From: Paenibacillus aceti
Lineage (GTDB): Bacteria > Bacillota > Bacilli > Paenibacillales > Paenibacillaceae
Reading direction: 5' to 3'
Length of the DNA: 64,000 bases
Assembly: GCF_003614185.1 (NCBI RefSeq)
Contig: NZ_KZ987724.1
Coordinates: 3,551,171 to 3,615,170 of the forward strand
In this document: piece by piece, positions 18,701 to 52,823 of the stretch
How the letters are laid out: every line of letters starts with the position of its first letter
Position numbering within the stretch: the first letter of the stretch is position 1
The notes under the pieces: model-generated
Told to the model about the DNA's origin: nothing
What the model saw: only the letters and a program-made list of their open reading frames with translations
Database searches by the model: none
Position numbers and translations under genes: made by a program

Positions 18701-18742
18701 CGCCTAACCAAGCCAGATTCACAAAGTGCCCATATGCAGCGA

Positions 18743-19399
18743 TCAACCATCCCCTAAGCGATGCGCCAACAACCAGGCATACAATTCCGGATTACTGTAG
18801 GTAATCTCCATCACCTTATGCCCCAAGCCCGGGTAGCGGGTGAATTTCACCTGGCCGCCGACCTCCAATAATGCCGTGACGATTTCCTCGGATTTCTGGA
18901 TCGGAATGATGTCATCCTCTTCACCATGGAAATTCCAGATGGGAATGTCCTTGAGCCATTCGACCTTGTCCGTTCGGTACCAGCCGGAAATCGGCACGAC
19001 AGCAGCGAACAGCTCGGGATAGCGGGTTGCCAGGTTCCAGGCCCCGTTCCCCCCCATGCTATAGCCCGTTAGATATACTCTGTTCCGATCCACTCTATAG
19101 CTCGCCAGGATATGGCGATAAATCGCCATAATCTGCTCCTGCTCGATAATCCAGGAGGAATGATTAGGACATTGCGGGGTCACTACAATAAATCCAAAGT
19201 CATCCAAGCTTTGCATAGCCTGCGCGAAGCCATAATTATCGAAGACGTGAATATCATTCCCTCGTCGGTTAGAGCCGTGCAGATATACGATCAGCGGCCA
19301 CTGCTTCTCTGGCTCTTCCGCATACTTCTCCGGAAGGATGAGTTGGTAATCAAGCTCGTCCTCCTCTTGCTTATAATAATATTCTATAGGCAACCTCAT
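18743..19399 (-). CDS. alpha/beta-hydrolase (PHB depolymerase/esterase-like)
   Basis: 218 residues, last gene of the 25-gene operon, 16 bp after its neighbour. Oxyanion segment VYLHGSNRRG near residue 40, nucleophile elbow LTGYSMGGNG near residue 118, Asp in HGEEDDIIP near 170 and His in GLGHKV near 200 complete a catalytic triad. Family knowledge: cytosolic esterases or peptidase-like hydrolases. It resembles the hydrolase core of the 889-residue protein in the same operon, but retains the normal Ser nucleophile. Possible ester-releasing or editing role (inference). Confidence 0.88.
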   Translation of the reverse strand: MRLPIEYYYKQEEDELDYQLILPEKYAEEPEKQWPLIVYLHGSNRRGNDIHVFDNYGFAQAMQSLDDFGFIVVTPQCPNHSSWIIEQEQIMAIYRHILASYRVDRNRVYLTGYSMGGNGAWNLATRYPELFAAVVPISGWYRTDKVEWLKDIPIWNFHGEEDDIIPIQKSEEIVTALLEVGGQVKFTRYPGLGHKVMEITYSNPELYAWLLAHRLGDG

Positions 19400-19415
19400 T
19401 CACCTCCGCTTGTGT

Positions 19416-20279
19416 TCACAAATAATGCTGCAAGAACAGGTTTACTTCCTCGAAGGCCTGCCCAACCTCCGGGCTATGAAAGTTCTGATCGAATACATGA
19501 TCCCCGCCCTCGATCGTAATAAGTTTGCAATCCACCCCAGCTTGCCGCAGCTTGGCGTACATATGAAGCGATTGCTCATAAGGCACATCAGTGTCCCGGT
19601 CGCCATGCAGCAGCAGGGTCGGCGGATAATCGTGGGTCACGCCAAGGATCGGACAATAGGCTTGCAAAGCATCTAAATCCTCGGCACGATCATATCCCGT
19701 CACTTCCTCAACCCAATTGCCATTTTGACGACAGTACATGTAATAGTCATATCGAGCCCAGGAGCCTTCCGATGCGACAACGTTCCCGATCGATGCTTTT
19801 GCCCTCTCCAGCGTCACCTTCGGCCGCCGATTATAGAACGAGCTCGGCTTCATAATCCAATCTCCGATAATATCGCCATATCCATAGAAGGATACGATCG
19901 CCTTCGGTCTAATCTCTTCAATGGTGCCAGCCAGTAAGCTCAAATAGGCCCCTGCCGAGCTGCCGATCAACGCGATTCGCTCGGGGTCAAATCGATAGTG
20001 GGGTACGGCCTGCTCCCGAACCCAACGGACAGCATCCTTAAGATCCTCTACAATATCCGCCAGCTTCGCTCCTGGCGCAAGGCGGTAATCCACACTGACA
20101 ATAGAGTATCCGGCATTCTTGTACCATTGAATTTGCTGCAATGGCAGCCAGCTTCTGGAGCCAAAGATAAACCCGCCACCGTGCAGGTACACCAGTACCG
20201 GAGAGCCTGCTCCATGAGCATAGACATCCGCTCTGATCTGACAATTATCCAACTGTTTATAGATTTTAGTCTCTTTCAT
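19416..20279 (-). CDS. alpha/beta-hydrolase of the HGGG (hormone-sensitive lipase-like) class
   Basis: About 287 residues from ATG 20279, with GAGGTG four bases upstream; a longer in-frame start at 20342 has no ribosome-binding site. Oxyanion hole YLHGGGFIFG near residue 35, nucleophile GSSAGAYLS near 115, catalytic Asp in LLHGDRDTDVP near 225 and His in GGDHVFD near 260. Cytoplasmic carboxylesterase, deacylase or deacetylase type. A 99-bp gap with a hairpin separates it from the gene before. Confidence 0.88.
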   Translation of the reverse strand: MKETKIYKQLDNCQIRADVYAHGAGSPVLVYLHGGGFIFGSRSWLPLQQIQWYKNAGYSIVSVDYRLAPGAKLADIVEDLKDAVRWVREQAVPHYRFDPERIALIGSSAGAYLSLLAGTIEEIRPKAIVSFYGYGDIIGDWIMKPSSFYNRRPKVTLERAKASIGNVVASEGSWARYDYYMYCRQNGNWVEEVTGYDRAEDLDALQAYCPILGVTHDYPPTLLLHGDRDTDVPYEQSLHMYAKLRQAGVDCKLITIEGGDHVFDQNFHSPEVGQAFEEVNLFLQHYL

Positions 20280-20307
20280 AAGACACCTCATCTTTAGACA
20301 TGGGAAT

Positions 20308-20340
20308 GAGCGGAGCCAGGTAAATCCCATTACTCCGCTC
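20308..20340 (-). promoter_or_regulatory. intergenic hairpin inside the 25-gene operon
   Basis: GAGCGGAG (20308-20315) and CTCCGCTC (20333-20340) form an 8-bp stem in the longest internal gap of the operon. No U run follows, so it is more likely an RNA-processing or stability element than a terminator. Confidence 0.4.
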
Positions 20341-20378
20341 ACCCTATAATACTTCTTACATCACCGATATCTGCTTAA

Positions 20379-21380
20379 TTAGAGGCCGGTCTGGACACTC
20401 AGGCCCCAGCCGAAGAACTCGCTCTGGGACACCTCAGCCGTCACTGTATTCTCACCTGGCTGCCATTGCACCGGAATCCGGGCAAAGCTTGAGCGGACCC
20501 GGCCATCACTCGCTGGAGGATTCCAATTCCAATCCCCTTGATATACTTCCTTATCATTGACCCATAGCCGGATATGATCGCTGAATCCGAGGCTTAGGAT
20601 CGACTCCCGCCCTTCCGGAACCGTAACGGTTCCCTTCACCAGCACAGTTGAGTCCGGCCCTGCCTTGTGAATTCTATTAATATTCAACGTCCCGTTCTCT
20701 TCCACGACAGAGGTTGTCCATTCCTGTTGGTCAGCTAAGCTACTCCCACGAGAGTACGGCTGAGAAATCTGCCATTCGGTAATGAAGGAGTCCGACTGTA
20801 ATTGCCGCTGATCCGCCAGTCTCTGCTCAATCGGAGCCGCAGGAGTAATCTCCTCAATCGTAAAATTACGAATATAACTCGAGAGGAAATTCCAAATACC
20901 TACTTTTCCCGGAGCCCCCCCATGCTGCAAATTCTTAATCACAAGCTGCGGCTCTGGATCATCACCTAAATATACCGTTGCCCCGTTCGGCTCTACGTCA
21001 ACCGTGAACTTCCTCCATTCACCGGTTGTATTCGGCAGGGGCTTCTGATAGGAAGGGCCATTATAGACCTGCCAGGTCATAGATCCATTCATCACCGGAT
21101 CATATTGAATCTCCTCAGGGGCCAAATAGATCAGCTCGAAGTTCTCCGCATCCCGGGCGCCAAAGGCAAAGCCGATGAAGCCTACATGCTCAGGAATCAC
21201 TACATCCGCCTGCAATCGATAAGAAGCGAAGGGTACCTCTTCCTGTAAAAAGATCGCGGAATTCACCTTATGAAGATGCAATGCTTCGCATCCCTGCCAG
21301 TGGCCAGGACATGCGCCAGAGTCTCCTAAATCGAACTTGCTCAAATCATCGTGCAGGTTGAACATTAACTTCGTCTTCAT
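20379..21380 (-). CDS. two-domain beta-sandwich protein, lectin-like plus galactose-binding-like
   Basis: 333 residues without signal peptide. The N-terminal 180 residues (PFASYRLQADVVIPEHVGFIG, FAFGARDAENFELIYL, GKVGIWN) resemble the laminin G/DUF1080-type jelly roll that binds sugars. The C-terminal part (ILSLGFSDHIRLWVNDKEV ... GENTVTAEVSQSEFFGWGLS) looks like a galactose-binding beta-sandwich. No catalytic residues are recognisable. Immediately downstream of the carbamoyltransferase/SGNH fusion gene, so probably a binding partner for a glycosylated intermediate; this is inference. Confidence 0.7.
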   Translation of the reverse strand: MKTKLMFNLHDDLSKFDLGDSGACPGHWQGCEALHLHKVNSAIFLQEEVPFASYRLQADVVIPEHVGFIGFAFGARDAENFELIYLAPEEIQYDPVMNGSMTWQVYNGPSYQKPLPNTTGEWRKFTVDVEPNGATVYLGDDPEPQLVIKNLQHGGAPGKVGIWNFLSSYIRNFTIEEITPAAPIEQRLADQRQLQSDSFITEWQISQPYSRGSSLADQQEWTTSVVEENGTLNINRIHKAGPDSTVLVKGTVTVPEGRESILSLGFSDHIRLWVNDKEVYQGDWNWNPPASDGRVRSSFARIPVQWQPGENTVTAEVSQSEFFGWGLSVQTGL

Positions 21381-21389
21381 CAGAACACC

Positions 21390-24389
21390 TCATTCATTTA
21401 TATTTAAATTGAAGAATTGCCAGCGGAATATATCGCCATATGCAGGTCTGGCGCGTTTGATGAATAATTCATAGCCTGAGTACGACTGATTATAAGCAGC
21501 ATGGATCGTCTCCGTGATCGAATCAATATCCGGCCAGAGGATTTGAAGCTCATTCACCCCATCCTCAGACAGATCCTCCTGGTCGATATCCACCGAATAA
21601 TTGCTCCATGTTGCAAATAAAGGAAGCCGGGCTATCCTCTTCTTGTTCATAAGCAGCTCAGCATAGACCGGTTCGTCCTCGTCATGACCATGACCTATCG
21701 GTCCACGAAGGGTTAATTGTCCACGCAACTTGCTCTTAGGATCAGCGATAAGATAAAAGGTAGAGATGCTGCTGCGCGCGCTATAGTAGCATTGATCCTT
21801 ACTGTTATAGTCCACGGACTTCGAGCCGGAGAACACGGTAAAATAACTATTTTCCCGATAATACGTCTCCAACAGGTTCACCGACCGATGAGGCAAAGGC
21901 TGATGCTGCTCGATCCGCAGCACGTTCATCTCCGCACGGATATCCATCCCTTCCTCTACGAGACATTGAGTCATAGCTCTGGCCAGCCCCAGATCGAGTA
22001 CCATACAATCCGTGAATTGGCGCAGAATCACATATTGCTTCGTGCACACCGTCTCATATTGGCGATTCAGCACCCAGGGTACCTTTCTTGAGGTCAGGTC
22101 GATAAAGGAGCGGAACCAGTCGGTCATCCCCGGCCATAATGTGATAGCTTGCTTGCAGTGATAATACAGAATCTCATACGGTTGATCCCCGATATGTGCA
22201 CTATGAACCGCAGCATAGAAATGCGACTTGCTCACGGTCTCCGAAGCAGGCCTGTGGAAGGAAGGAGCGACTTCTCCTGATCGTCTTCCAAGCGACTGCA
22301 ATATTTGCTCCGCTGTGTAGCTCATCGCCAGCTCAATTCCTCGGGGATTCAGATGACAATAATCCAGGAATATATTGAATGAAGGCAGTTCCCCCTCTAA
22401 ATCCTCAGCGAATCGATCCGGCAAATCCACCGTCCTGATGCCAAAATACTCAGCATGCTTAAGAATCTGCTCGCGGATGAAACTAGTACAGGCTGGGGGC
22501 GGCCCAATACGATACATATTCGTATCCCTGGCCTTCTCCAGAGAACGACGTGCCTCATCCAGCATTCCGGCATTATCATAGACTTCGGCCAACAGTTGGT
22601 ATCCAAGCGGGTTCGCACTGTTCAATTGAACCATTCGTGCAGCAAGCGGGGACAATTCCTCGAACCTTCCAGCTTGAAGCAGCTCCTCCGCCTGTAGTCT
22701 CAGCGCATGCCATTCCTCGCTCTCTTCCCCTGGCCAGGACAATGTTTTCTCAGACTCATTGCTCTTCCAAGCCTGCAAATTAAATTCCGGAATGATGAAA
22801 ATGACCGGGATACCCCTGAGGATAAATGGCTCGTACAGCTTCTCAAAAAAAGCTCTGATCAGCGCATCGCTCTTCTGCTCAAACACCGCTCTAATTACTT
22901 CATAACGATGGGGTTCATGAAGCGATTGAAGGATGGTGCTTACCTCCCCCTCATTAAGAGCCCAGAGCGATTTTCGCCAATTATCCCCGGCATAGATGAC
23001 CAGGACATCGGGCTCCAGCAGACTGCTCTGTAGACATACGCTCTGCAGATCACGCAGTCGAATGCTCACCCGAGCGATATCAACGACCTCCATCTCCTCT
23101 GCGCCCAGCGTTCCATTGAGCAACTCCTCCAGACAGGTCGCTGGGTTATGAAAGGGATCGAGCAAGAACCCTCTCGCCCCGGATTCCCCGGCGAATCCAA
23201 TTCTGGTTCGCGCCCCTTTTGGGGGAATACGCTCCACCTGAGCCCAATGACAGAACTCATGCCGATTTCGCGCATCGCGTACAAACTCCCCTTGGCTGCC
23301 CGGTGCTTGCCGTCGCCAAATCCCCACTTTCTCCTCAACGCTCTCTGTCAACAGGGTTCTGGGTGGCAGAGGAGTCTGTAGATCGGCCAGCACCTCCCGG
23401 ATAAACCGGGCTTCATTGCGCTCACACTCCAAAATAAAAGAGCCTATGACCAACACATCCAAATCTGTGGACAAAAAGGCACATACCGCATCCGCCGGAC
23501 TTTCCACCCGAGGTTCACCATGTACCTGAAAGGGCAAATGCATAAGGCTGAAATTTCGCCCCTGCCCAGTAATTTGTTTCAATACGCGATCAAGCAGAGG
23601 ATTATGATCAGGCAGGCCTACAATCTCATGAACTGCAGCAGCCCTATCCAAGCCTTCCTCATATGTCATGGCTTGTAACCGTTCAACGATCGACCCTTGA
23701 TCCACTCCTGCATCAGCCAGATACAGGATAGAGCGATTGCCTTGAGATCGTGGGCCGAATTCCATTCTTCCTTGGAACCAGCCGACCAGGCGACCTTCCT
23801 CTAATAGTTGAGCCGTCCGCGAGATCAGTCCAGCCGAATCCCCCCTGAAATCAGCAAAATCCAGTGCAGCCGCTTCAAGAATGCGAACAATATCCTCGTC
23901 AGGATGCTCCGACCCTAAGTAGACATGTTCTAACGGAGTAATGACCTCTCCAGTAAGCCGAGCGTACGAAGCTGCCGCAGCCAATACAGCCGTTCCTCCT
24001 CCAATACTCATGCTCTCCTGCTGTATTTCTCCTTCCGCTAATGAGCGGGTACTGGCCGTATACAGCACATCTTGATTTATAAATTCAACAGGCCCCTCAA
24101 AAGCCAGTAATTGTCTAACCAGCAGCTCGGTCTGCTTCAGCCGTTGGTCGACCTCATCGCCAGCCCCCGCTTCCAAAGCGTCCATATAAATAGCAATGAG
24201 ACTAATATCCGTAATCGATAGACCCGCGCTGTCCAGACAAAATCGGAAGGACTTGCTAGGCATCCTGGCAGCATCCTGGCTGCGTGAGAATACTTCCTCC
24301 TGGGCCGCATAACGTATCACCCCATCTTGAACCAGACAGCACGCGGCTTCGTCAGGTGCCAGCGAGATTCCGACAAGATTAAGACTCAT
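21390..24389 (-). CDS. carbamoyltransferase-like/TPR/SGNH-hydrolase-like fusion protein
   Basis: About 999 residues from ATG 24389 (MSLNLVGISL). Residues 1-300 resemble the NodU/TobZ O-carbamoyltransferase family: the N-terminal VGISLAPDEAACCLVQDG and the C-terminal hallmark GWFQGRMEFGPRSQGNRSIL, where PRALG is changed to PRSQG. From about residue 390 a new region begins with IGFAGESGARGFLL, an SGNH-type first block, with a TPR-like segment (LLAEVYDNAGMLDEARRSLE) around 630 and the matching CHLNPRGIEL block near 700. The C-terminal 250 residues form a beta-rich domain. It overlaps the upstream ACP gene by 11 bp. Changed motifs suggest a non-carbamoylating role or altered acceptor. The architecture is unfamiliar to me. 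Confidence 0.7.
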   Translation of the reverse strand: MSLNLVGISLAPDEAACCLVQDGVIRYAAQEEVFSRSQDAARMPSKSFRFCLDSAGLSITDISLIAIYMDALEAGAGDEVDQRLKQTELLVRQLLAFEGPVEFINQDVLYTASTRSLAEGEIQQESMSIGGGTAVLAAAASYARLTGEVITPLEHVYLGSEHPDEDIVRILEAAALDFADFRGDSAGLISRTAQLLEEGRLVGWFQGRMEFGPRSQGNRSILYLADAGVDQGSIVERLQAMTYEEGLDRAAAVHEIVGLPDHNPLLDRVLKQITGQGRNFSLMHLPFQVHGEPRVESPADAVCAFLSTDLDVLVIGSFILECERNEARFIREVLADLQTPLPPRTLLTESVEEKVGIWRRQAPGSQGEFVRDARNRHEFCHWAQVERIPPKGARTRIGFAGESGARGFLLDPFHNPATCLEELLNGTLGAEEMEVVDIARVSIRLRDLQSVCLQSSLLEPDVLVIYAGDNWRKSLWALNEGEVSTILQSLHEPHRYEVIRAVFEQKSDALIRAFFEKLYEPFILRGIPVIFIIPEFNLQAWKSNESEKTLSWPGEESEEWHALRLQAEELLQAGRFEELSPLAARMVQLNSANPLGYQLLAEVYDNAGMLDEARRSLEKARDTNMYRIGPPPACTSFIREQILKHAEYFGIRTVDLPDRFAEDLEGELPSFNIFLDYCHLNPRGIELAMSYTAEQILQSLGRRSGEVAPSFHRPASETVSKSHFYAAVHSAHIGDQPYEILYYHCKQAITLWPGMTDWFRSFIDLTSRKVPWVLNRQYETVCTKQYVILRQFTDCMVLDLGLARAMTQCLVEEGMDIRAEMNVLRIEQHQPLPHRSVNLLETYYRENSYFTVFSGSKSVDYNSKDQCYYSARSSISTFYLIADPKSKLRGQLTLRGPIGHGHDEDEPVYAELLMNKKRIARLPLFATWSNYSVDIDQEDLSEDGVNELQILWPDIDSITETIHAAYNQSYSGYELFIKRARPAYGDIFRWQFFNLNINE

Positions 24390-24654
24390 CGGCGTCCCCC
24401 AGCTTCTGATAGATATACTGTGATATTTTCTCAACCGTTGAGAAATTCTCAAATACGAGCGAACTCTGATCCACACAGATACCGAACTCTTCCTCCAGGT
24501 CGAACAGCAAATTTACAATCTTTAACGAGTCGATGCCGTGATCATTCTTCAGGTTGGACTGCTCATGAACTCTATCCGGATTGTGAAGGGCGTTACGGCC
24601 GACGACCTCAATTACTTTATTCTTAATTTCATTCATATCCATTAGCGTTGGCAT
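24379..24654 (-). CDS. acyl/peptidyl carrier protein (second of operon)
   Basis: About 91 residues from ATG 24654 (MPTLMDMNEI), with GAAAGGG upstream; ATGs at 24642 and 24636 are alternatives. A four-helix carrier protein with the phosphopantetheine attachment Ser in HGIDSLKIV near residue 44 and the helix II pattern LLFDLEEEFGI. It overlaps the genes on both sides. Together with the ACP at 44523 it gives two loadable carriers; which ligase serves which is not visible. Confidence 0.92.
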   Translation of the reverse strand: MPTLMDMNEIKNKVIEVVGRNALHNPDRVHEQSNLKNDHGIDSLKIVNLLFDLEEEFGICVDQSSLVFENFSTVEKISQYIYQKLGDADES

Positions 24655-27298
24655 GAGCGTGCACCCTTTCATGATTGAAATAGTGGAATTGGCCTTCATT
24701 CCATAGGATTGCGCTGCAGTAGAACATAGGGTTGGAATCATAGCTATTAAAAAGATCTAACAGCTGCTGTTCCGCAACCGAGCCGTTTACAATAACTAGC
24801 AGTAAGTAACGCCTCGGGTTCAAATAACTAGTCGTTCGAATCAGCGCCACATATTCCCCCTGATAGCTTCTGCCCTGGAATACCAGCTTATTGGGCGACA
24901 GCTTCAGCTGCAGAGATCCGGTATCAAACGGCAGTGCTTCGCAGCTATCGAATTCGGCATCATGATAATAGACGATATGGCTATTCTCCAGAGCACCCAC
25001 CTGCTCATCGAGGCGATGCTGAAGCATATACTTATAATTTCTTGCCCGCTCTCGCAGCGGCTGCTGCAGCAAATGAGTCATGGTGCGGATATACCGCTTC
25101 TTGTTCGGATCCGGCTCAGGCACGATGACGGTGCATTTATCGGCATATACGGCTTTGATTCCCATAGCGCTCTGATCCGGCTCCAGCTTCTCCCTCATCA
25201 GCTCGTAGGGCACTTGGCTCAGCTGCTCAACCGTAAAGCTCATCTTCCCGCCGCCAGCTGCCAATTGAATTCGAATCAAGCTGTAATCATGCAGCTGCAA
25301 TGACGCTTCCTCCCCATTCACTCTCAGAACCGTATTAATGCCTAAATCCATCGCATTCCGGTCTATTAAGAGTCGAATGCTCCGGGCCTGATCCGTGTCT
25401 ACGACAATTTCGCCAGGCTGAACCGCGGCGCGAACTATCGTCCGCTGGCACACATCGGCGACCGCCTCGATTCTCAACCAATAGGATGTATTGTAGATCG
25501 GCTCATGCATATGAAACACAATTTCCCGAGGATTCCGGTCCCTTATATGCTGCTGCATTAAGCGGAGCACCTCTCTCGACTGAAAGACCTCAACCGCTTC
25601 CTTATGCGAGAAATAATTATAGAGGACATTCCGCACCCGGGGCATATAAGCACTGGATTGCAGAATCCGGGTCGTGTTGAAAATATCATCTTCGATATTC
25701 AATAGCTGATATACAGGGGTTGTGCCCAGATTTTCGAGTATCGAATAATCAGGATTATTGATATCCGCCCGGAACGTGCCGACGATATTCATGACAGCGG
25801 CGAACTTGCCGGGAAAGCGGGTGGCCAACCCGAAAATTCTCAAAGCACCGGAGCAGACTCCCATCAGATAGACCCGATCCCGATCTACTCCATAATCCTC
25901 AATGATCTCTTCGATAAACCGCATAATATCCATTTCATTAATATAATCCTTGTTATAGCCGCCCCTTGCGTACATGCAAGCCCAGATGACATCCTCAAAG
26001 CGGTTGTGATACATCTCGTCCGTTCCTTCAGGAACCGTGTTGACCATCGTTCCAAAGGGCATACAGAACACCAGCGGAAACGCCTCTTCCCGCTTATAAT
26101 TGCGGGGCAGAAATACCGTATAAGCGAGCTTGGCCCCATCGATGCTACTCGTACTAAGGGCCGTCTTGATTCCTCTTGGCGAGAATTTCCCTGCATCGAC
26201 ATCTGCCCCCGCCTCCAGCTTGCTCACCGCATCCTCATATTCCCTTAGCAAATGATAATAGATACGATCATAATGCAGCTCTACCTTCCCATGGTTAAGC
26301 CCCTTATCATTCATAGCGAGACTGAGCATGTAGCGATAGAGCTCCAATTGATCTGAACCCATCCCACAAGCAGCCAACCCCTCCAGCAAGCGTTCTCTCT
26401 CATCCTCATAATCTCCGATAAAAATATAGGCGGTCGACAAAGCCTCTTCCGTGCTGCTCTCCCCTGCTGAGACGATGAGTTCCACTACTCCTGAGGCGGC
26501 CTGGCTTAAATCGATACTCACGGGCGTACCCATGTATACGTCACTCGAATGCCAGATCACGCCCTGACGATTTCTCACTTCCAGCTTCAGCCGTTCAGAC
26601 TCGCTATTCTGCAAATCATAAGGAAGGATGAGACAGGATACCCGCTTGTCGGTGCAGAAAGGGCGGTCCGGCAGTACATAATAGAGAGATTTCATCTCTT
26701 CGAGCTTGGCCGGTGTAAACACCAACTGCTCCCGATCCATCTCCAGCAGCAGGGATACCGGCTTATACGAGATCGTAAATCCGTATTCCCCTTCTGGAAG
26801 CGAACGAGTCTCATCATTCACAGCACGTTCCAGCAGAATCGTGTTCACGCCCTGCTTCAACCTGGCAATGATCTGAAACGGCTTGACATGATATTGGAAG
26901 GTACTGTGATTGATTAAATGACCGTTGAGCCATACCGTTACAGGCAGCGAGGAACGAGTGAAAATGAACACTTCCTGTTCAACAGGGCTATAGATGGAGC
27001 AGAGACAATAGATGCGCTTGTCCTCATCGATCTGGAACATGGATTCCAGCAGATTCTCTCTGCCATCCGCTGATTTGTAATAACGCCAGCTATTCTCCCT
27101 TTGCTGCTGCGAGGCGAAGGATACCTCATGCTCCAATAGAATAGGGGACGCCAGGGTCAACGAATCCTCCCCAGGGTCGCTCACACTTCTCACCAGCCAT
27201 TTTGTCAGAAAATTAGGTACATCTCCGGAGAAAGTAACCGGATAATGGCTATGATTCACTATCAGCTCTAATTCATCGGCATCCTGCTTAAGCCGCAC
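24629..27298 (-). CDS. large alpha/beta-hydrolase with Cys in the nucleophile position
   Basis: 889 residues from GTG 27298 with GAGGTG upstream. The N-terminal 330 residues form beta-rich domains (WLNGHLINHSTFQYHVKPFQ, LKQGVNTILLERAVN is sugar-binding-like). A hydrolase core follows, residues about 385-570: YTVFLPRNYKREEAFPLVFC, then DRDRVYLMGVCSGALRIFG. Compared with GYSMGG of the 218-residue hydrolase, the elbow reads GVCSGA, placing Cys where Ser is expected. The C-terminal 300 residues are further beta-structure. Cys-nucleophile hydrolases include dienelactone hydrolases and some thioesterases. Acting as an acyl-releasing or transferring enzyme on the carrier proteins is inference. Confidence 0.75.
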   Translation of the reverse strand: MRLKQDADELELIVNHSHYPVTFSGDVPNFLTKWLVRSVSDPGEDSLTLASPILLEHEVSFASQQQRENSWRYYKSADGRENLLESMFQIDEDKRIYCLCSIYSPVEQEVFIFTRSSLPVTVWLNGHLINHSTFQYHVKPFQIIARLKQGVNTILLERAVNDETRSLPEGEYGFTISYKPVSLLLEMDREQLVFTPAKLEEMKSLYYVLPDRPFCTDKRVSCLILPYDLQNSESERLKLEVRNRQGVIWHSSDVYMGTPVSIDLSQAASGVVELIVSAGESSTEEALSTAYIFIGDYEDERERLLEGLAACGMGSDQLELYRYMLSLAMNDKGLNHGKVELHYDRIYYHLLREYEDAVSKLEAGADVDAGKFSPRGIKTALSTSSIDGAKLAYTVFLPRNYKREEAFPLVFCMPFGTMVNTVPEGTDEMYHNRFEDVIWACMYARGGYNKDYINEMDIMRFIEEIIEDYGVDRDRVYLMGVCSGALRIFGLATRFPGKFAAVMNIVGTFRADINNPDYSILENLGTTPVYQLLNIEDDIFNTTRILQSSAYMPRVRNVLYNYFSHKEAVEVFQSREVLRLMQQHIRDRNPREIVFHMHEPIYNTSYWLRIEAVADVCQRTIVRAAVQPGEIVVDTDQARSIRLLIDRNAMDLGINTVLRVNGEEASLQLHDYSLIRIQLAAGGGKMSFTVEQLSQVPYELMREKLEPDQSAMGIKAVYADKCTVIVPEPDPNKKRYIRTMTHLLQQPLRERARNYKYMLQHRLDEQVGALENSHIVYYHDAEFDSCEALPFDTGSLQLKLSPNKLVFQGRSYQGEYVALIRTTSYLNPRRYLLLVIVNGSVAEQQLLDLFNSYDSNPMFYCSAILWNEGQFHYFNHERVHAHANANGYE

Positions 27299-27304
27299 CT
27301 CTGC

Positions 27305-29149: not shown

Positions 29150-29174
29150 CTGACTCCTCCTCTATCATCGCTTC

Positions 29175-30758: not shown

Positions 30759-30789
30759 GGTTTCTCCACCTCTTCGTCATCTAATACAG

Positions 30790-31602: not shown

Positions 31603-31606
31603 GTCT

Positions 31607-33377: not shown

Positions 33378-33392
33378 GTCACTTCGACCACC

Positions 33393-33986: not shown

Positions 33987-33991
33987 TCTTG

Positions 33992-36257: not shown

Positions 36258-36272
36258 AAGCCATCCCCCTCT

Positions 36273-38142: not shown

Positions 38143-38169
38143 ATTAACCCCGCCCTTCAGCGCTATCGT

Positions 38170-39579: not shown

Positions 39580-39608
39580 CTTTCATCACCCTCTTGACCT
39601 TGATTACT

Positions 39609-40613
39609 TCAAGCATGCGAAACAGGATTAACGGTATTCAGCAGGTTCAGTGCATTTAACAGTTCCCCCGGTAATTCATAAGGATCATAGGACAGGACAT
39701 TCAACAGCTGCTCATCGCTGCTGAAGCCACATAATGCACAGGCCACATTCGGCTGAGCCAATACCCAGCTTATAGCCGCATCCACATATTGAACCTCATA
39801 CTGATCACATAACTGAAAGAAGACTTGTAAGGCTTCGACTTTGCTGCGATCATCCGTGATTCTCTTGAGCCACTTATTGCGGTAAGGGATGTTCCCGCGC
39901 AGATCATTCGTGTTCGTGTTGTCCTCCCTATATTTTCCGCTTAAGAGGCCTTGAGCGAGGGGAGAATAGGCGATTAATCCAATCCCCTCGTCACGGCAGA
40001 CCGCCAAGACATCCTCGTCGGGTCTTTGCAGGACATTATATTGCACCTGGTTGGCGACCACCTGCAGCTTCGCTTCCTTGGCCAGCCGGGAGAATTCCCC
40101 AATCGCCTCCGCGGGCCACATGCTGATGCCGGCATACAATATTTTGCCTTGATTCTTCAGGGTCGCTAGAGCATCTACTGTCTCATGGAGAGGCGTATCT
40201 GGATCGAAGCGATGACAGTAATAAACATCGATATAATCCGTGTTCAGCCTGGTCAGGCTTTTGTCGCAGCTCTCCATAATATGCTTACGGGACAGGCCCG
40301 CGTCATTCGGCCATTTGCCGACACGGGCATGCACCTTCGTAGATAATACATAGGAAGACCGGGTGATCCCCTCCAGGGATTTACCGAGTAATATCTCCGA
40401 CCAGCCTGGCAGAGCGCCGTACATATCCGCGGTGTCGAAATGGCAGACCCCCTCGTCCATGGCTTTGGAGATCAATGGGCGCTGATCCTCATTCGTAGAG
40501 AAGTTCAGCCAGGTACCGAACCCGATTACAGAAATCTTCAGCCCGGAGCTCCCCAGTCTTCGATGACCGATAGATTCGGCCATTTGCTTGGCATAGATCA
40601 GCTTTCTTTCCAT
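39609..40613 (-). CDS. aldo/keto reductase
   Basis: 334 residues. The catalytic tetrad is visible: Asp in FDTADMYG near residue 60, Tyr in the same segment, Lys in LSTKVHA near 93, and His in YYCHRFD near 132; GLIAYSPLAQGLLSGKY is the usual NADP-binding strand. It reduces an aldehyde or ketone with NADPH. It overlaps the carbamoyltransferase gene by 16 bp. The substrate is unknown. Confidence 0.92.
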   Translation of the reverse strand: MERKLIYAKQMAESIGHRRLGSSGLKISVIGFGTWLNFSTNEDQRPLISKAMDEGVCHFDTADMYGALPGWSEILLGKSLEGITRSSYVLSTKVHARVGKWPNDAGLSRKHIMESCDKSLTRLNTDYIDVYYCHRFDPDTPLHETVDALATLKNQGKILYAGISMWPAEAIGEFSRLAKEAKLQVVANQVQYNVLQRPDEDVLAVCRDEGIGLIAYSPLAQGLLSGKYREDNTNTNDLRGNIPYRNKWLKRITDDRSKVEALQVFFQLCDQYEVQYVDAAISWVLAQPNVACALCGFSSDEQLLNVLSYDPYELPGELLNALNLLNTVNPVSHA

Positions 40614-42247
40614 ATCAAATACCCCTCTAAATACATAAATTCCAGAGGCGAAGCATAGAAGGATCTGATCGCTTCCTCAGGTCTGCAGACGACGGGTTCC
40701 CCCGCGATATTGAATGATGTATTGACTACGGCCGGGAAGCCAAGGGTCGTCTTCACCTGATTTAATAGATTCGCATACGGATCATTCGGGTTATTCGCCA
40801 CTGTCTGCACACGGGTCGTACCATCGACATGGGTCACTGCCGTCAGGTTCTGGCGGTCCCCTGTAACTGGCAGGGTGAACAGCATGTACGGAAGATCAAG
40901 CGGCTGACCGAACGCGGTCTCTGTATATTCCTCCAGCATGCTCGGGCCGTAAGGTCTCCAGGTCTCCCGCTTCTTCACATCGATATTAAGCCGATCCTTA
41001 TTAGCTCCAAGCGCCGGATTAGCGATAATGCTGCGATGCCCCAGGGCTCTGGGGCCAATCTCAATCCCACCGGAGAACCAGGCCCCGATCTTCCCCTCTC
41101 CCAGCAGCTTGGCCACAACTTCGATACTATTACTGGAGGAATGCGGTATACCGAGCTTCTTCAGCAGAGCCCCTATGTAATCCGTGCTGAATTTCGGGCC
41201 TAGCCCTAGATCCTTGAGCGGCTTCAAAGGCAAGCCGGTCGCTTGATACCATAGCTCGGCAGCAGCTCCAATCGAGGCTCCCGTATCATTAGCTGGTCCC
41301 GGGACGAAGATATCCTTGAATAATTGCTCGACCAGCACTTTGCCATTGGATGTGCAATTCAAGGCTACTCCGCCTGCGAGACATAAATTGTCCTCACCGG
41401 TTAATTGCTTGGCGAGTCTAGCCAGATGGAGAATTACGGTATCTAATGTCAATTGCACACTAGCCGCTACTTTTGTAATCCGCTCATCAAATTCCGTCTT
41501 CTCTTGGTTATAGCAAGTCGCAAGCTCATACTCATATTTTCTGCGGTTAGCAGGGCCAAAATCCTTGATCAATCTCTGCACCCAATATTGAGTCACATGC
41601 TCCTGAGTAGGCAGCTCCGGGACATCCATCTCATAGCCGTCCTCCGTCAAGCGCACATAAGGCAGTACCTCGCCAACGCCATAAGGCGCCAGCCCCATCA
41701 GCTTGCCTGCTTCCAGCTTGGAGAATCCCGCATATTGCGTAGCCCCTTCATAGAAGAGACCCAGGGACAAATTACTCGACCAGGAACGGAGCAATTTAAT
41801 CGTGCCATCCGCCTGTCCATGATATAGCGTAGTTCCTACACTCTCTCCCGTTCCATCGATGATGAGGATCGCCGCCGATGGAAAACCTGAGAAACGGAAG
41901 GTAGATGCGGCATGAGACAAATGATGATCGACATCCTCAATTTGGGCGTTGCGCGGCTGATAGCCGAATAGCTCCGGCGGAAATAGTCTACGCGAGTTCA
42001 CTTCATAGTTCGCCAGAGTGCGATCCTGAATTTTGTCCCTTTCCCATGGATAAGCGATCTTATCGACGTCCTCCAGCGTTAATCCGCGGCTCTCAAGGCA
42101 CCATTTCGCAGCGTTAACCGGAAACTTGCCCCAGGCTCGCTTATTTCTAATTAATCGTTCTTCTTCGACGGCGCATACCAATTCGCCATCTTCAATCAAG
42201 CATGCGGAACCATCATGATAAGGAGCTGATACGCCTAAAATTCTCAC
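40598..42247 (-). CDS. O-carbamoyltransferase (NodU/CmcH/TobZ family)
   Basis: About 549 residues from GTG 42247 (VRILGVSAPYHDGSACLIED) with TTGGGGG nine bases upstream; ATG 42274 is the alternative. The N-terminal ASKHA-type domain carries VDHHLSHAASTFRFSG, IIDGTGESV and LCLAGGVALNCTSNGKVL. The C-terminal domain has IEIGPRALGHRSIIANP, ETWRPYGPSMLEEY and NTSFNIAGEP. Family members make carbamoyl-adenylate from carbamoyl phosphate and ATP, then carbamoylate a hydroxyl of an antibiotic or sugar. All recognised catalytic blocks are intact, in contrast to the degenerate copy at 21390-24389. Confidence 0.92.
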   Translation of the reverse strand: MRILGVSAPYHDGSACLIEDGELVCAVEEERLIRNKRAWGKFPVNAAKWCLESRGLTLEDVDKIAYPWERDKIQDRTLANYEVNSRRLFPPELFGYQPRNAQIEDVDHHLSHAASTFRFSGFPSAAILIIDGTGESVGTTLYHGQADGTIKLLRSWSSNLSLGLFYEGATQYAGFSKLEAGKLMGLAPYGVGEVLPYVRLTEDGYEMDVPELPTQEHVTQYWVQRLIKDFGPANRRKYEYELATCYNQEKTEFDERITKVAASVQLTLDTVILHLARLAKQLTGEDNLCLAGGVALNCTSNGKVLVEQLFKDIFVPGPANDTGASIGAAAELWYQATGLPLKPLKDLGLGPKFSTDYIGALLKKLGIPHSSSNSIEVVAKLLGEGKIGAWFSGGIEIGPRALGHRSIIANPALGANKDRLNIDVKKRETWRPYGPSMLEEYTETAFGQPLDLPYMLFTLPVTGDRQNLTAVTHVDGTTRVQTVANNPNDPYANLLNQVKTTLGFPAVVNTSFNIAGEPVVCRPEEAIRSFYASPLEFMYLEGYLIWKES

Positions 42248-42306
42248 ACCTATTCCCCCAACTTGTGATTTCATCAGCCAATAAAAAGCTAGAATGGTGA
42301 ATGGCT

Positions 42307-43197
42307 CTAGCCGTTCGCCGTCCCCCGAAACGCTGTTCTTGTCATGAAAGGGCGAGATTGTATCAGCCATAACGTCCCATCGTGATCCTCGGCCCATTCT
42401 ACTTCCTGGTCACCCTCAAAGATCGATCTGACGCTGCTTCCAAGGGCCGCCAAGCGTCGGTTGAGCCCGGGCTCGAAAAGCTCGGCTGCCTGCTCTTCGG
42501 GATTCAACCCCCGGCGGCTTAGGCCCTGTCCGCTCTCGGCCCGCTCGCATACCTCCGTCTGGCTGCCTTTTCGCGTAATCGCATCCTCTCCCCCGGATAA
42601 CGAAGCGGTCAAGAAGTCCGGATTCATCGCCCCGGAGACGAGATCGACCGCCAGCCCCCAGGCTCCTTCGGCAATAAATTGCTGGCTTGAAGGTCGGCCT
42701 GTGATCATCACCCCGGCCTTCCTCGGAGAAATCAGCTGCTGAATAATAATATTCATCTGCATTCTGGCGTTGCCGAGCCGCTCGGCATATTTGACGGCGA
42801 CATCGGAATGCAGCGCTCTGACGCACTCCTCTACCGCATCAGCGATCTGATCGATACCACGCACGCCAAGTACACTCTCGAAAATTCCCGCCGCGCTGGC
42901 CTGAGCTAGATCCTCGACGGTAGAGCTTGATCGAACTGCAAGAGTTGTCGCATCCAGATCGAAATAAGCTTGAAGCTGTCCGAGCAGCCATGACTTCCAA
43001 TCCGGACGATCTAATTCAATCAGTTCATAGGGGATAATGATCGCCCTTGGAACCTGTATACCTTGTTGATGAGCAACGCCCAGTCTCCAAGCTTTAGCCC
43101 CTATGAGTTCAAGGGAGACCTCCGCTGCCTGCTCGATAGATATGACTGTTCGTATATCAATACCCTCCTTTGTGAAAATTGGAAGTGGGAGGATCAT
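42307..43197 (-). CDS. PEP-synthase/PPDK-like ATP-binding subunit
   Basis: About 296 residues from ATG 43197, which overlaps the stop of the preceding gene (ATGA). It is the stand-alone N-terminal nucleotide-binding domain of PEP synthase-like proteins: GAKAWRLGVAHQQGIQVPRA, LAVRSSSTVEDLAQASAAGI, and LWLIQSRPF at the C-terminus. In the full-length enzymes this domain phosphorylates a histidine on the swivelling domain, here encoded separately at 44191-44526. Relatives include rifampin phosphotransferase and PigC-type condensing enzymes. The PEP/pyruvate barrel domain is absent. Confidence 0.88.
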   Translation of the reverse strand: MILPLPIFTKEGIDIRTVISIEQAAEVSLELIGAKAWRLGVAHQQGIQVPRAIIIPYELIELDRPDWKSWLLGQLQAYFDLDATTLAVRSSSTVEDLAQASAAGIFESVLGVRGIDQIADAVEECVRALHSDVAVKYAERLGNARMQMNIIIQQLISPRKAGVMITGRPSSQQFIAEGAWGLAVDLVSGAMNPDFLTASLSGGEDAITRKGSQTEVCERAESGQGLSRRGLNPEEQAAELFEPGLNRRLAALGSSVRSIFEGDQEVEWAEDHDGTLWLIQSRPFMTRTAFRGTANG

Positions 43198-44201
43198 ACG
43201 CCAAGCTGAATGAGAAAAGCCACTTCCCGGGGCGATAAGCATTTAGAGCGAATCTCGCTTGGCTTACCGTTGCGGATCGTCTCATAGACATGGTCTGGCA
43301 CTTTGCTGGAAAGGCCGCGCAGCTCTCTTAATGGCGATTTTCGAAACCAGAAAATATCTGCATATTTTTCCGTCTTCTGCTGCCAGGTCCACTCATCCAC
43401 GATCCCGCTTACCTGCCTTGTCTTCGCGATCAATGCATCGACAAAAGCGCTTATCTGCTCAGTATCCACGCTCTCTCCATCGATGGTGACATGCCATGAG
43501 AGCAACGATTGATTCAGCTTGCCTGAATGGTAGATATGGTCATAGCAATCGACTTTAACTTCTGCAGAAGTCATATATTCACATACTGTAGTTATCTTCT
43601 TGTGATTAATTAGTAGAGAGGAAGGCCAAAGTTCTGTCGGGGAAAGATTGTGAAATTCGCGAATGACGATTGCCGTATTGTCTGCGGTGATGTATGGGCC
43701 ATGCACGGTCTTCACCGCGTCATGTCCGCGAAACAGGATGGCTTCTGTATACATGAACAGCGCCGCTTGCAGCTTATGAATGAGATTTGAATCGCCTTGC
43801 TTCCTGCTGCTCTTAGGGGGAATATCGGGATGGATGAGAAGATTGGCGCCGTTCTTATTGAATAAATCTCCAGCTTTCAGTGTGTGGGCTGCCCGAAGCA
43901 TTCTCACCACGAATTGTCTCTGCTCCTCTAGCGGCGTACGCGCTCTCCTCAGGCCGAATATGACGACATCGATGAGACGGAACAGTCTTCCGGGATATTC
44001 GAAAATTTGCGCCAGCTGCTGCGGACCGTTCTCCTCATCCCAGATGGCATTCAAATCCTCGATGAACTCCTTGGCGAACACATCCGTAAACAGATGCATA
44101 ATCGATGAGATCCGTAGTGGCCAATCTTCATAATCGTTATATCCCCACGCTACCTTCAGGGATTCACGATACCCTTTGAGAAGCTCCTCATTATCCAACA
44201 A
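43194..44201 (-). CDS. unknown protein between the split PEP-synthase-like subunits
   Basis: 335 residues from TTG 44201 with AGGTG upstream. I recognise no domain. Helical N-terminus (DEENGPQQLAQIFEYPGRLF, FVVRMLRAAHTLKAGDLFN), then a mixed region with DNTAIVIREFHNLSPTELWP. No signal peptide or membrane helix. Sandwiched by overlap of 11 and 4 bp between the swivelling His domain and ATP-binding subunits, it is the candidate acceptor-binding subunit of the tripartite enzyme, by analogy to the substrate domain of rifampin phosphotransferase. This assignment is inference. Confidence 0.7.
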   Translation of the reverse strand: MLDNEELLKGYRESLKVAWGYNDYEDWPLRISSIMHLFTDVFAKEFIEDLNAIWDEENGPQQLAQIFEYPGRLFRLIDVVIFGLRRARTPLEEQRQFVVRMLRAAHTLKAGDLFNKNGANLLIHPDIPPKSSRKQGDSNLIHKLQAALFMYTEAILFRGHDAVKTVHGPYITADNTAIVIREFHNLSPTELWPSSLLINHKKITTVCEYMTSAEVKVDCYDHIYHSGKLNQSLLSWHVTIDGESVDTEQISAFVDALIAKTRQVSGIVDEWTWQQKTEKYADIFWFRKSPLRELRGLSSKVPDHVYETIRNGKPSEIRSKCLSPREVAFLIQLGV

Positions 44202-44526
44202 CTAGCACCTCTCCTTGATCGGCATGGACTTCGATATAGCTGCCGTCTTTAATCGCCTTCGTGGCATCATTGACCTGGGTCATGCAAGGGATTCCGATTT
44301 CACCCGCTACGATGCAGATATGAGCCATCACCGCACCGGATTCACAGACTAGTGCTCCAGCATCCAACAGCATAAGAGAATACTTCGGGTTACTATGAGG
44401 AATAACTAGAATATCGCCTTTGTCAAAAGGCCTATCATTGTCCGGACCTGCCACATATGCCTTGCCCTTATATACTCCCGGGTTAATGACAATGCCTTGC
44501 AGCGTCTTATTGTTGTCCACGATCAT
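44191..44526 (-). CDS. PEP-utilising-enzyme swivelling phosphohistidine domain, stand-alone
   Basis: 111 residues. The segment DILVIPHSNPKYSLMLLDAG, then ESGAVMAHICIVAGEIGIPC near residue 70, matches the mobile domain of PEP synthase-like proteins, with the phospho-acceptor His in MAHICIVA (usual TSHAAIVA). The C-terminus IEVHADQGEVLV is also typical. It should shuttle phosphate between the ATP-binding subunit and an acceptor. It overlaps the ACP gene by four bases and the unknown 335-residue gene by 11. Confidence 0.9.
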   Translation of the reverse strand: MIVDNNKTLQGIVINPGVYKGKAYVAGPDNDRPFDKGDILVIPHSNPKYSLMLLDAGALVCESGAVMAHICIVAGEIGIPCMTQVNDATKAIKDGSYIEVHADQGEVLVVG

Positions 44527-44786
44527 GACCTCGCCTCTATTTTTTTGAAAATAAATTCACAGAGTTGATCATAATTATCGAATAAATCCGGGCAGAGCTC
44601 CCCGTCAAAGACAGCTACGCCAAAGCGCTGTTCAATAGCTACGACCAGCTCGATCAGTTGGACCGAATCCAGGCCAATATCGCGCAGCAATGAGGTGTCA
44701 CCCTTTAGTTCCTCCTGCACCTGTGTAGAAGATAATCCGTTAGCCAGCAATTCACCCAGCTCTTTTTTTACATCAACCAATAACAT
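44523..44786 (-). CDS. acyl/peptidyl carrier protein (first of operon)
   Basis: 87 residues. The phosphopantetheine Ser lies in LRDIGLDSVQLIELV near residue 41, followed by VAIEQRFGV. Second gene of the operon, six bases after the radical SAM gene and overlapping the swivelling-domain gene by four. Its proximity to the phosphotransferase genes suggests that a carrier-bound intermediate is what gets phosphorylated or condensed (inference). Confidence 0.93.
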   Translation of the reverse strand: MLLVDVKKELGELLANGLSSTQVQEELKGDTSLLRDIGLDSVQLIELVVAIEQRFGVAVFDGELCPDLFDNYDQLCEFIFKKIEARS

Positions 44787-44792
44787 TCTCTA

Positions 44793-46076
44793 TCATCCCT
44801 TTCGGCTAATATGAGCGAGCATGTCTTCCTGTAGATGTGTTGGATAGAAGAAACGTGCCACATCATCGGCAAAATCATAATACTCGGATTCCAAATACAA
44901 ATGATCTTCGTCCAAACGCAGCAAGCCTTTTCTCGTTAGATCACTGATTTGTTTACCATATACATCTGTCAGTTCAACACCGAATTTATTGATAAAATCC
45001 TGACGCTTGATCTTCAAGTTCTTGAAGCTCATGACGACGTAGCGAATAATCTCATCACGCTTCGACAGCTTGTACGATCTCGATATCGGCAATCTCCCGT
45101 TCGTCACCATATCTACGTACTCTTTCATATCCGACGTATTTTGGTACATTGAACCGTTAAAGGAGGAATGCGATGAGAGACCGATCCCTATCATTTCCCC
45201 CCCATACTGTATATTCTCCCGGTGTCTGTCGATGTAGTGGGGACTAATGACGAAGCTGGAATTGTTGGACATGAAGTAGCCCTTCGATTCCAGGAATCTC
45301 CTCGCCCATCTGAAATGCGCGGCTTCAACATCATCGCTCACTAATATTTCCGGATTCTCCCGCAGCTTCTTGAAGAGCTTGGTATTGTAGAATACCTCCA
45401 TCTTATAGATTGAGATATTCTCCGGGCCAAAGCCATATAGGGCTTCCACCGAGTTCTTCCACGATTCTTCTGTCTCATGCAGCATACCGGACATCAGGTC
45501 GCAATTGTCCCAATCAAATCCTGCCATACGCACACGATCATAGGTATCATAGAAGATCTTCGAGAGGTGATTACGACCGTTCTCTTTCAGAACTCGGTCA
45601 TCCAGGCTTTGAACGCCCATGCTGATTCTGTTGACGCCTAATTGTTTAAGAGTATTGAGTTTCTCTTGGGTGGCTTCTCTTCCAGGTCTTACTTCCACGT
45701 TGAATTCAAAATCGGAGGTTTTAGGAAAGATAGATTCGAGAGCTTGGACAATCTTGATGAATTGTTCTGAGGTAAGCATGGTCGGGGTACCCCCGCCGAA
45801 GTAAAGAGTTTGCATGGAACAGTATTGTACTTCCGGCCGTTCTGCCAGCAAAGCAATCTCCTGCAGCAGCACATCGACATAAGCGGCAATTTCATCTCCG
45901 CCCTTCGATTCTTCGACACGGTAGTAACAAAAGTTGCATCTTTTAGGGCAGAACGGCAGGTGGAGGTAAATATTAATCGGCCGTCTCTCCCAAATTGTGG
46001 ATACATTTTTTGCTGATAGTACGCTGTACGGTGGATAAGCCGTTACAAAGGTTTCCCGCTTGAGCGTAAGTTCCAT
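44793..46076 (-). CDS. HemN-like radical SAM enzyme
   Basis: 427 residues, first gene of the operon. The [4Fe-4S]-binding motif is CPKRCNFCYY near residue 45 (CxxxCxxC), with the SAM-binding GGGTPTM near residue 108 and FEFNVEVRPGREATQEKL near 145. The C-terminal region has the HemN winged-helix-like tail (FGVELTDVYGKQISDLTRKG). HemN-like enzymes in natural-product clusters catalyse C-methylation, cyclopropanation or other radical steps; a housekeeping coproporphyrinogen oxidase is unlikely in this setting. Confidence 0.88.
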   Translation of the reverse strand: MELTLKRETFVTAYPPYSVLSAKNVSTIWERRPINIYLHLPFCPKRCNFCYYRVEESKGGDEIAAYVDVLLQEIALLAERPEVQYCSMQTLYFGGGTPTMLTSEQFIKIVQALESIFPKTSDFEFNVEVRPGREATQEKLNTLKQLGVNRISMGVQSLDDRVLKENGRNHLSKIFYDTYDRVRMAGFDWDNCDLMSGMLHETEESWKNSVEALYGFGPENISIYKMEVFYNTKLFKKLRENPEILVSDDVEAAHFRWARRFLESKGYFMSNNSSFVISPHYIDRHRENIQYGGEMIGIGLSSHSSFNGSMYQNTSDMKEYVDMVTNGRLPISRSYKLSKRDEIIRYVVMSFKNLKIKRQDFINKFGVELTDVYGKQISDLTRKGLLRLDEDHLYLESEYYDFADDVARFFYPTHLQEDMLAHISRKG

Positions 46077-46151
46077 ACATTCAACCCTTTCTCTTCAATT
46101 TAGCTTTTTAATAATCCCTCTGTATTGGCATATATGACTTTTTTCAGAATC

Positions 46152-46180
46152 ATATTACATTTTCTACTTTCTTTTGTCAA
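46152..46180 (-). promoter_or_regulatory. sigma-A promoter of the 25-gene operon
   Basis: On the minus strand TTGACA (46180-46175), a 17-bp spacer and TAATAT (46157-46152). The first start codon is 75 bp downstream. No other promoter of this quality was noticed inside the operon. Confidence 0.85.
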
Positions 46181-46259
46181 TTATTCCTTGTATATTTATG
46201 GGTCAATAGGCCAAATCGTGGTATATCGTTGCTAGGGAGGAGGTTGAACGATGTATAAA

Positions 46260-46327: not shown

Positions 46328-46348
46328 GCGGGTGGGGATTCGGCGCTC

Positions 46349-46531: not shown

Positions 46532-46599
46532 CAATTTAGTGGGCAGCACAAAAGGCCGCCAAGATAGATAGCTCCCTCGACAGCCTTAATAGATTGACG

Positions 46600-52776: not shown

Positions 52777-52823
52777 TGTTGCTATGACCTCACGATCCTC
52801 ACTTTCTTTACTTGAATATGCTT

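Follow-up and report, generated by a model that had tools for sequence, protein, structure and literature searches.

A conserved carrier-protein gene cluster of Paenibacillus aceti without modular synthases and with an apparently split dikinase

A block of 25 genes was analysed in a stretch of 64,000 nucleotides from Paenibacillus aceti (assembly GCF_003614185.1, contig NZ_KZ987724.1, positions 3,551,171 to 3,615,170). This whole stretch is called the window, and coordinates without a locus name refer to it. The block is a genuine, conserved biosynthetic cluster free of nonribosomal peptide synthetases (NRPS) and polyketide synthases (PKS). On balance we favour a pathway with discrete carrier proteins leading to an exported metabolite derived from 4-amino-4-deoxychorismate (ADC) or p-aminobenzoate (PABA), probably aminoacylated and carbamoylated, in which a dikinase is split over three chains. 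The features on which this reading depends are the following, with acyl carrier protein abbreviated to ACP, seryl-tRNA synthetase to SerRS and amino acids to aa.

46152..46180, minus strand: promoter-like site TTGACA-17-TAATAT, 10/12 consensus
44793..46076, minus strand: g1, HemN-type radical SAM enzyme (PF04055 1.1e-22, PF06969 3e-6)
44523..44786, minus strand: g2, ACP1, Ser41 (PF00550 8.9e-9)
44191..44526, minus strand: g3, stand-alone swivel phosphohistidine domain, His69, 111 aa (PF00391 1.1e-14)
43194..44201, minus strand: g4, orphan, proposed acceptor-binding subunit of the split dikinase, always directly after g3
42307..43242, minus strand: g5, stand-alone PPDK_N ATP-binding domain (PF01326 2.6e-37)
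40598..42277, minus strand: g6, NodU-type carbamoyltransferase (PF16861 7.4e-56, PF02543 2.7e-44)
39609..40613, minus strand: g7, aldo-keto reductase (PF00248 1.1e-64)
38170..39579, minus strand: g8, AMP-forming acid ligase (PF00501 7.4e-32, PF13193 2.4e-12)
36976..38142, minus strand: g9, homologue of amino acid:[carrier protein] ligases and archaeal-type SerRS (phmmer, NCBIfam)
33992..35389, minus strand: g12, aminodeoxychorismate synthase component I (PabB), Lys285 (TIGR00553, PIKGT)
33393..33995, minus strand: g13, PabA-type glutamine amidotransferase, Cys82 (PF00117, TIGR00566)
24379..24741, minus strand: ACP2, Ser72 of the open frame (PF00550 8.9e-9; homologue in P. xylanexedens)

The first-pass annotation, made from the letters of the window alone, had proposed that the block is a single unit, and comparison with relatives bore this out. 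In P. xylanexedens DE0019 (G203), which belongs to a different genus, 24 of the 25 genes are colinear; thus, the block is more than a chance assembly. For 23 genes blastp orthologues were found there in identical order and orientation with 46.7-85% identity, and the hydrolase gene g23 comes next (49% over 240 aa, 45% over the last 55 aa). For the last gene, g24, no orthologue was found within 20 kb past the downstream end of the P. xylanexedens block; this gene lies outside the conserved block. Next to the P. xylanexedens block, the stretches read contained no orthologue of the genes that flank the block in the window (ABC-F-type, GT4, AAA). The ABC-F region is retained in three sister species from the window's genus with about 81-87% DNA identity, only up to about 17.8 kb of the window. 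In P. agilis N4 (G308) the genes for the radical SAM enzyme, ACP, g3, g4, g5, aldo-keto reductase, AMP ligase, PabA and PabB stand together. Searching 395 genomes of the family with g9 (E<=1e-8) gave matches in 51, the own genome included, of which the best outside it was 62% identical (P. xylanexedens) and the next 37%; hence, clusters with discrete carrier proteins may be frequent across the family. As a separate observation, one cluster (L046/L051/L052 of G316) carries a g9 homologue (30%), a HemN-type radical SAM gene (26%), ABC-2 transporter genes (28-44%) and ACP-like matches, and no g4 match was found in it.

The genes lie within 18743-46076, all on the minus strand, and comprise 24 open reading frames (ORFs) and the ACP2 gene, whose true start is probably inside its ORF. 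The tight packing described in the first-pass annotation was confirmed: neighbouring genes overlap or are separated by 36 bp at most, and the sole larger spacing, 152 bp between g20 and g21, is occupied by ACP2. A strong promoter had also been claimed ahead of g1. The site is present at 46180-46152, 75 bp before g1, and was the best minus-strand site among three promoter scans, but the number of promoter-like sites in this region is that of chance. On both strands, 2 sites were found against 1.9 expected from shuffled sequence at 45900-46700, 10 against 10.6 at 36500-46000 and 28 against 25.8 at 18000-37500. Neither internal promoter-like nor terminator-like sites are in excess in the block, and with a stricter pattern no TTGACA-type site was seen in the 400 bp upstream of g1 of P. 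xylanexedens. Since site counts are at chance throughout, the region of the TTGACA-17-TAATAT site included, a single transcript across the 25 genes is plausible, no more. The base composition of the block is host-like (genome of 5.6 Mb in 8 contigs).

All 25 proteins were scanned with Pfam and 20 with NCBIfam (all except g11, g14, g15, g16 and ACP2). The functions named in the first-pass annotation agree with these matches, among them the split PEP-synthase-like proteins (PEP, phosphoenolpyruvate), the PabA/PabB pair, the amino acid:carrier ligase homologue, which is related to Bll0957, and the ABC-2 exporter g14-g16 (PF00005, PF06182). Likewise, no condensation domain of NRPS and no ketosynthase domain of PKS was found by Pfam in any of the 25 proteins.

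According to their domains and order, g3, g4 and g5 look like a His-swivel dikinase divided into three chains. The ATP-binding domain of g5 (PF01326) reached 129.3 bits with a cut-off of 27 and the swivel domain of g3 (PF00391) 54.2 bits with a cut-off of 23.1. No Pfam or NCBIfam family and no significant PDB sequence match (best E 0.42 and 0.64) was obtained for g4. Its AlphaFold2 model, built from five sequences, has a mean pLDDT of 85.5 and consists of a helical N-terminal part and an alpha/beta part; residues 21-31 are among the most conserved stretches, yet the least confident in the model. Foldseek returned 0 matches to this model at E<=0.001, and the comparison with VIA gave no convincing match.

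The g4 family is rare. Its profile detected 3 of 395 genomes of the family (the window's, P. xylanexedens and P. agilis), 1 of 398 in a sample of the phylum (the window's own genome), 1 of 150 in the family of a metagenome-assembled genome (MAG) labelled Bacteroides (that MAG itself) and 2 of 391 in the class of a clostridial MAG (that MAG and G947). A scan of genome contigs of 84,980 species yielded at least 4 loci, from 83 stretches, a lower bound because exact short peptides are required; in plasmids and viral contigs no match was found. In all six loci compared (window, P. xylanexedens, P. agilis, L055, L056 and G947) g4 directly follows a g3 homologue, the swivel His of g3 is invariant, and genes for an ACP and an AMP-ligase-like protein are present. 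Radical SAM and PPDK_N genes accompany them in five of the six; the exception, L056, is a contig of 7.4 kb that breaks off within the AMP ligase gene. In L055 and G947, tblastn with g5 did not match the PPDK_N genes, which were recognised by PF01326 (8.3e-41 and 4.6e-47). The recurring core thus consists of a HemN-type radical SAM enzyme, an ACP, the swivel-His protein, g4, the PPDK_N protein and the AMP ligase, and g1 is 75% identical in P. xylanexedens, 55% in P. agilis, 38% in L055 and 36% in G947.

Two distant core loci come from MAGs labelled Bacteroides and Clostridia. The core has varying companions: L055 has NodU genes and a DUF362 iron-sulfur protein, P. agilis and L056 have FkbH, and G947 (L065/L066) has ketosynthase, ETF and U32 genes beside g3-g4, radical SAM and PPDK_N. 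The latter cluster indicates that the core can also occur with fatty-acid-type enzymes. The L055 contig, from the MAG labelled Bacteroides, carries an AgrB gene, for which reason we suspect a mis-binned contig of Bacillota.

As g4 always adjoins g3, the acceptor site would most naturally lie in g4. The C-terminal PEP/pyruvate-binding domain of PEP synthase was not found by Pfam in any protein of the block, so pyruvate is unlikely as acceptor. An aromatic hydroxyl or amine would be a reasonable guess by analogy, since the accessible part of PMC7500099 describes multi-subunit dikinases with phenol and aniline as substrates, and PabAB adjoins. As far as these searches of open-licence literature go, a split dikinase with an orphan subunit is undescribed. 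We propose only tentatively, and with less than even confidence, that the three-protein dikinase is a new enzyme class with a g4 family without known relatives, which would phosphorylate a carrier-bound intermediate for condensation or rearrangement together with the HemN-type radical SAM enzyme, occurs sparsely across Bacillota in clusters that otherwise differ and serves a new class of natural products. In a separate observation, the P. agilis cluster also encodes a complete single-chain dikinase of 771 aa (L061:667-2982; NF004508, 930.8 bits, cut-off 501) next to genes for an ACP and an NTP_transf_5 protein; one cluster thus contains two dikinases.

The assignment of g12 and g13 as an ADC synthase pair is supported by curated models. 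TIGR00553 gave 370.8 bits for g12 (cut-off 328.4), and TIGR00566, which also takes in anthranilate synthase partners, 220.4 bits for g13 (cut-off 121.05). The PIKGT motif of g12 includes Lys285, which we take to be its functional lysine, and g12 stays below every anthranilate synthase cut-off shown. Three other chorismate-binding enzymes are encoded in the genome, with the motifs PIAGS, PIAGT and PMKGT; the last is a fusion of 589 aa of chorismate-binding and Aminotran_4 domains (G000:C1:5545670-5546428; L006:1153-2922), and PabB of the P. agilis cluster is such a fusion, too. PabB-aminotransferase IV fusions are taken to combine ADC synthase and ADC lyase. Read in this way, they make PABA a likely precursor, with its finishing enzyme possibly encoded in the genome.

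Among the matches of g9 by phmmer were SerRS (3w3s, 1.1e-22) and Bll0957 (3mey, 1.1e-20). With NCBIfam, both the SerRS model NF002120 (139.3 bits) and the amino acid:[carrier protein] ligase model NF005479 (129.4 bits) remained below cut-off; as the latter requires 357 bits, g9 is called a homologue only. In an alignment to Bll0957 over 240 residues, Cys, Glu and Cys at 204/234/354 coincide with residues that we take to be the metal ligands of Bll0957. Judging from this homology, the likely role of g9 is to charge a carrier protein with an amino acid. The top NCBIfam match of g2 was cispentacin AmcB with 41.8 bits, below the cut-off of 80. In g1 the CxxxCxxC motif begins at residue 43. HemN-like radical SAM enzymes in natural-product pathways methylate, cyclopropanate or decarboxylate, according to the accessible part of PMC9714029.

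Of the carbamoyltransferases, given in the plural in the first-pass annotation, g6 proved complete, with both Carbam_trans domains above cut-off; its P. xylanexedens homologue (73% identity) exceeds both cut-offs as well. The ORF of g6 opens at 42397, and this homologue aligns from residue 51. The second one, the N-terminal part of g21, is by its sequence truncated and divergent. In P. xylanexedens two genes correspond to g21, a NodU-like one (591 aa) and one for a protein of 675 aa, and hence g21 is a fusion in which most of the NodU-like part was lost. The N-terminal part is 39% identical to the 591-aa protein over 105 columns. That protein passes both carbamoyltransferase Pfam cut-offs weakly (41.8 and 35.7 bits), and in the alignment both it and the g21 part lack the His motifs of g6, presumably the functional ones. 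More than one active carbamoyltransferase is not supported. In the C-terminal part of g21 the motifs GESGAR and DYCHLN occur, which we assume to be SGNH-like; this part has no Pfam family name.

The remaining genes of the block are listed below.

36273..36995, minus strand: g10, DUF2461/TIGR02453 protein (Pfam, NCBIfam)
35370..36257, minus strand: g11, PAP2-family membrane protein (PF01569 7.6e-18)
32379..33377, minus strand: g14, ABC transporter ATPase (PF00005 1e-29)
31607..32440, minus strand: g15, ABC-2 permease (PF06182 1.1e-14)
30790..31656, minus strand: g16, ABC-2 permease (PF06182 2.7e-47)
29175..30758, minus strand: g17, 5'-nucleotidase-family protein (PF02872 9.3e-46, PF00149 4.9e-7)
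27968..29149, minus strand: g18, NTP_transf_5 protein (PF14907 1.6e-51)
27305..27967, minus strand: g19, thymidylate-kinase-like P-loop protein (PF02223 4.8e-13; P-loop)
24629..27298, minus strand: g20, alpha/beta-hydrolase-like protein with Cys482, Asp537 or 538 and His565 (motifs, alignment)
21390..24389, minus strand: g21, NodU-like remnant fused to a C-terminal part with SGNH-like motifs (Carbam_trans_C only; ORF opens at 24476)
20379..21380, minus strand: g22, without Pfam or NCBIfam family (homologues in P. xylanexedens, 58%, and P. agilis, 45%)
19416..20342, minus strand: g23, alpha/beta hydrolase, GSSAG (PF20434, PF07859; P. xylanexedens homologue)
18743..19399, minus strand: g24, alpha/beta hydrolase, GYSMG, block edge (Pfam; outside the conserved block)

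Three hydrolases had been named at first. For g23 and g24 this stands, the latter outside the conserved block; g20 has to be corrected to a protein with a Cys-Asp-His triad, with GxCxG where its relative g24 has GxSxG. No Pfam match was found for g20, and its NCBIfam match to NF050058 (29.8 bits, cut-off 150) is that of a weak esterase. The triad is conserved in P. xylanexedens. The Cys nucleophile and the adjoining ACP gene suggest a putative acyl transfer by g20. The PAP2 protein g11 contains the motifs KX6R, PSGH and SRX5HX3D, and g17 has an N-terminal hydrophobic segment (residues 1-19). For a nucleotidylation of the product, only an NTP-transferase-family protein and a kinase-like protein are present in the block.

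The following pathway is proposed. PabAB (g12/g13) would form ADC, which would be converted to PABA most likely by an ADC lyase encoded elsewhere, such as the PabB-aminotransferase IV fusion in the genome. The AMP ligase g8 would put PABA or another acid on ACP1, and the SerRS-like g9 would charge a carrier protein, in the simplest case ACP2, with an amino acid. Modification of the building block is assigned to the radical SAM enzyme g1 and the aldo-keto reductase g7. In the dikinase, g5 would phosphorylate His69 of g3 from ATP and g3 would hand the phosphoryl group to an acceptor held by g4, whereby a hydroxyl, amine or carboxylate of the substrate may be activated or protected. An acyl group may be transferred from a carrier thioester by g20, whose gene adjoins ACP2. 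Carbamoylation is assigned to g6 and export of the product to g14-g16, and PAP2 (g11) and the nucleotidase (g17) may strip phosphate at the cell surface.

Several points weigh against this pathway. Every catalytic step is inferred from gene content, order, conservation and motifs, and g10, g11, g17-g19 and g22-g24 have no firm step. The role of g4 is read from gene position alone; none of the dikinase acceptor domains tested is detectably similar to it. The top model of g12 is anthranilate synthase (TIGR00564, 461.2 bits, below the cut-off of 517.7), and a second ADC-synthase model, TIGR01824, gave 388.2 bits, below 408.55. The block contains no ADC lyase. For g9, SerRS scores slightly better than the carrier-protein ligases. 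Finally, neither pabA nor pabB was detected in the stretches read of L055, L056 and G947; thus, the core reaction need not use PABA, and this argues against PABA as an obligatory substrate of the dikinase.

Two other functions of the dikinase were considered. In NCBIfam, g5 matched PEP synthase (1.2e-31), RedH (3e-31, second-ranked) and PigC (1.7e-25), and g3 matched PEP synthase (4.2e-20), RPH (1.3e-17) and PigC (5.9e-13), all below cut-off. The RPH model NF041857, which covers one chain, gave 63.5 bits for g3 and 99.6 for g5 against 999. As the PEP-synthase and RedH models fit g5 about alike, g3 is fitted better by PEP synthase and RPH than by PigC, and no match reaches its cut-off, deciding between phosphorylation, protection and condensation is a matter of judgement. 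For self-protection, the finished or nearly finished product would be phosphorylated inside the cell, as rifampin is by RPH, and dephosphorylated outside by PAP2 and the 5'-nucleotidase after export. The three-part logic resembles RPH as presented in the accessible part of PMC4844700, and the PAP2 protein and the nucleotidase with its hydrophobic segment are encoded in the block and in P. xylanexedens. We nevertheless regard self-protection as unlikely, because g3, g4, ACP and AMP ligase co-occur in distant loci without g11/g17 relatives (tblastn, stretches read), which makes the dikinase look like a core biosynthetic step.

A condensing ligase of the prodigiosin type (PigC/RedH), in which phosphorylation drives the coupling of two building blocks and replaces a condensation domain, seems about equally doubtful. 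The RedH and PigC matches of g5 and the PigC match of g3 are in line with it, and no other condensing enzyme is evident in the block. However, the PEP-synthase models fit g5 equally well, and g3 is fitted better by PEP synthase and RPH; none of these matches reaches its curated cut-off, and g4 is dissimilar to every middle domain tested.

That the conserved core g1-g9 and a separate unit g10-g24 are mere neighbours, by chance or co-transcribed, is improbable: although g10, g11, g17, g23 and g24 have no obvious place in the pathway and distant loci carry the core with other companions, the order g1-g23 is identical in another genus, the P. agilis core also adjoins PabA, PabB, an ACP2-like gene, an NTP_transf_5 gene, a g22 homologue and genes resembling ABC transporters by eye, and internal promoter-like or terminator-like sites are not in excess.

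Outside the block, an interspersed repeat about 190 bp long that contains direct and inverted repeats was found at 46340-46550 and 52945-53131. It has at least 46 matches at 40 places in the own genome, this copy included (40 of 215 first-look candidates scored), and is perhaps a non-autonomous palindromic element. A glmS ribozyme lies at 52541-52785, upstream of a SIS/GATase gene (50449-52281), and rRNA and 11 tRNA genes occupy the right end of the window (62161-64000); both are unremarkable.

With RPH and PEP-synthase-like dikinases the block shares the ATP-binding domain (g5) and the swivel His domain (g3). RPH is one chain, whereas three genes are present here, and g4 has no detectable relation to the acceptor domains tested. 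The rifampin-binding part of RPH comprises an apex subdomain, an alpha/beta sandwich and a four-helix bundle, as far as given in the accessible part of PMC4844700; by description only, g4 is a loosely similar mixture of helical and alpha/beta parts. PigC and RedH contain relatives of the g3 and g5 domains and are likewise used in a biosynthetic pathway. In contrast, each of their models covers a single chain of about 880 positions, g4 is unrelated to them, and g3 and g5 are far below the curated cut-offs. Phenylphosphate and phenylphosphoamidate synthases (Thauera, Desulfatiglans) are also derived from PEP synthase, consist of several polypeptides and use an aromatic OH or NH2 acceptor. Their His is at residue 512-571 of a long alpha subunit, instead of in a free protein of 111 aa like g3, and they serve degradation pathways (accessible part of PMC7500099); the likeness to g3-g5 is one of description. 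Bll0957 is homologous to g9 over 240 residues and differs in an N-terminal extension; g9 is below the NF005479 cut-off with SerRS scoring slightly higher.

Genome-mining tools that seek condensing domains of NRPS or PKS would likely overlook such a cluster. If the proposed split dikinase holds true, g3-g4-g5 could serve as a marker, simple and testable, of a group of assembly lines that lack modular synthases. To our knowledge, neither the butirosin side chain nor the closthioamide pathway has a split dikinase, g4 or the set of PabAB and NodU. Both are carrier-protein pathways free of NRPS and PKS, with free-standing carrier proteins and ligases in place of modular synthases, and the discrete carrier-protein pathway is thus a kind already known in outline.

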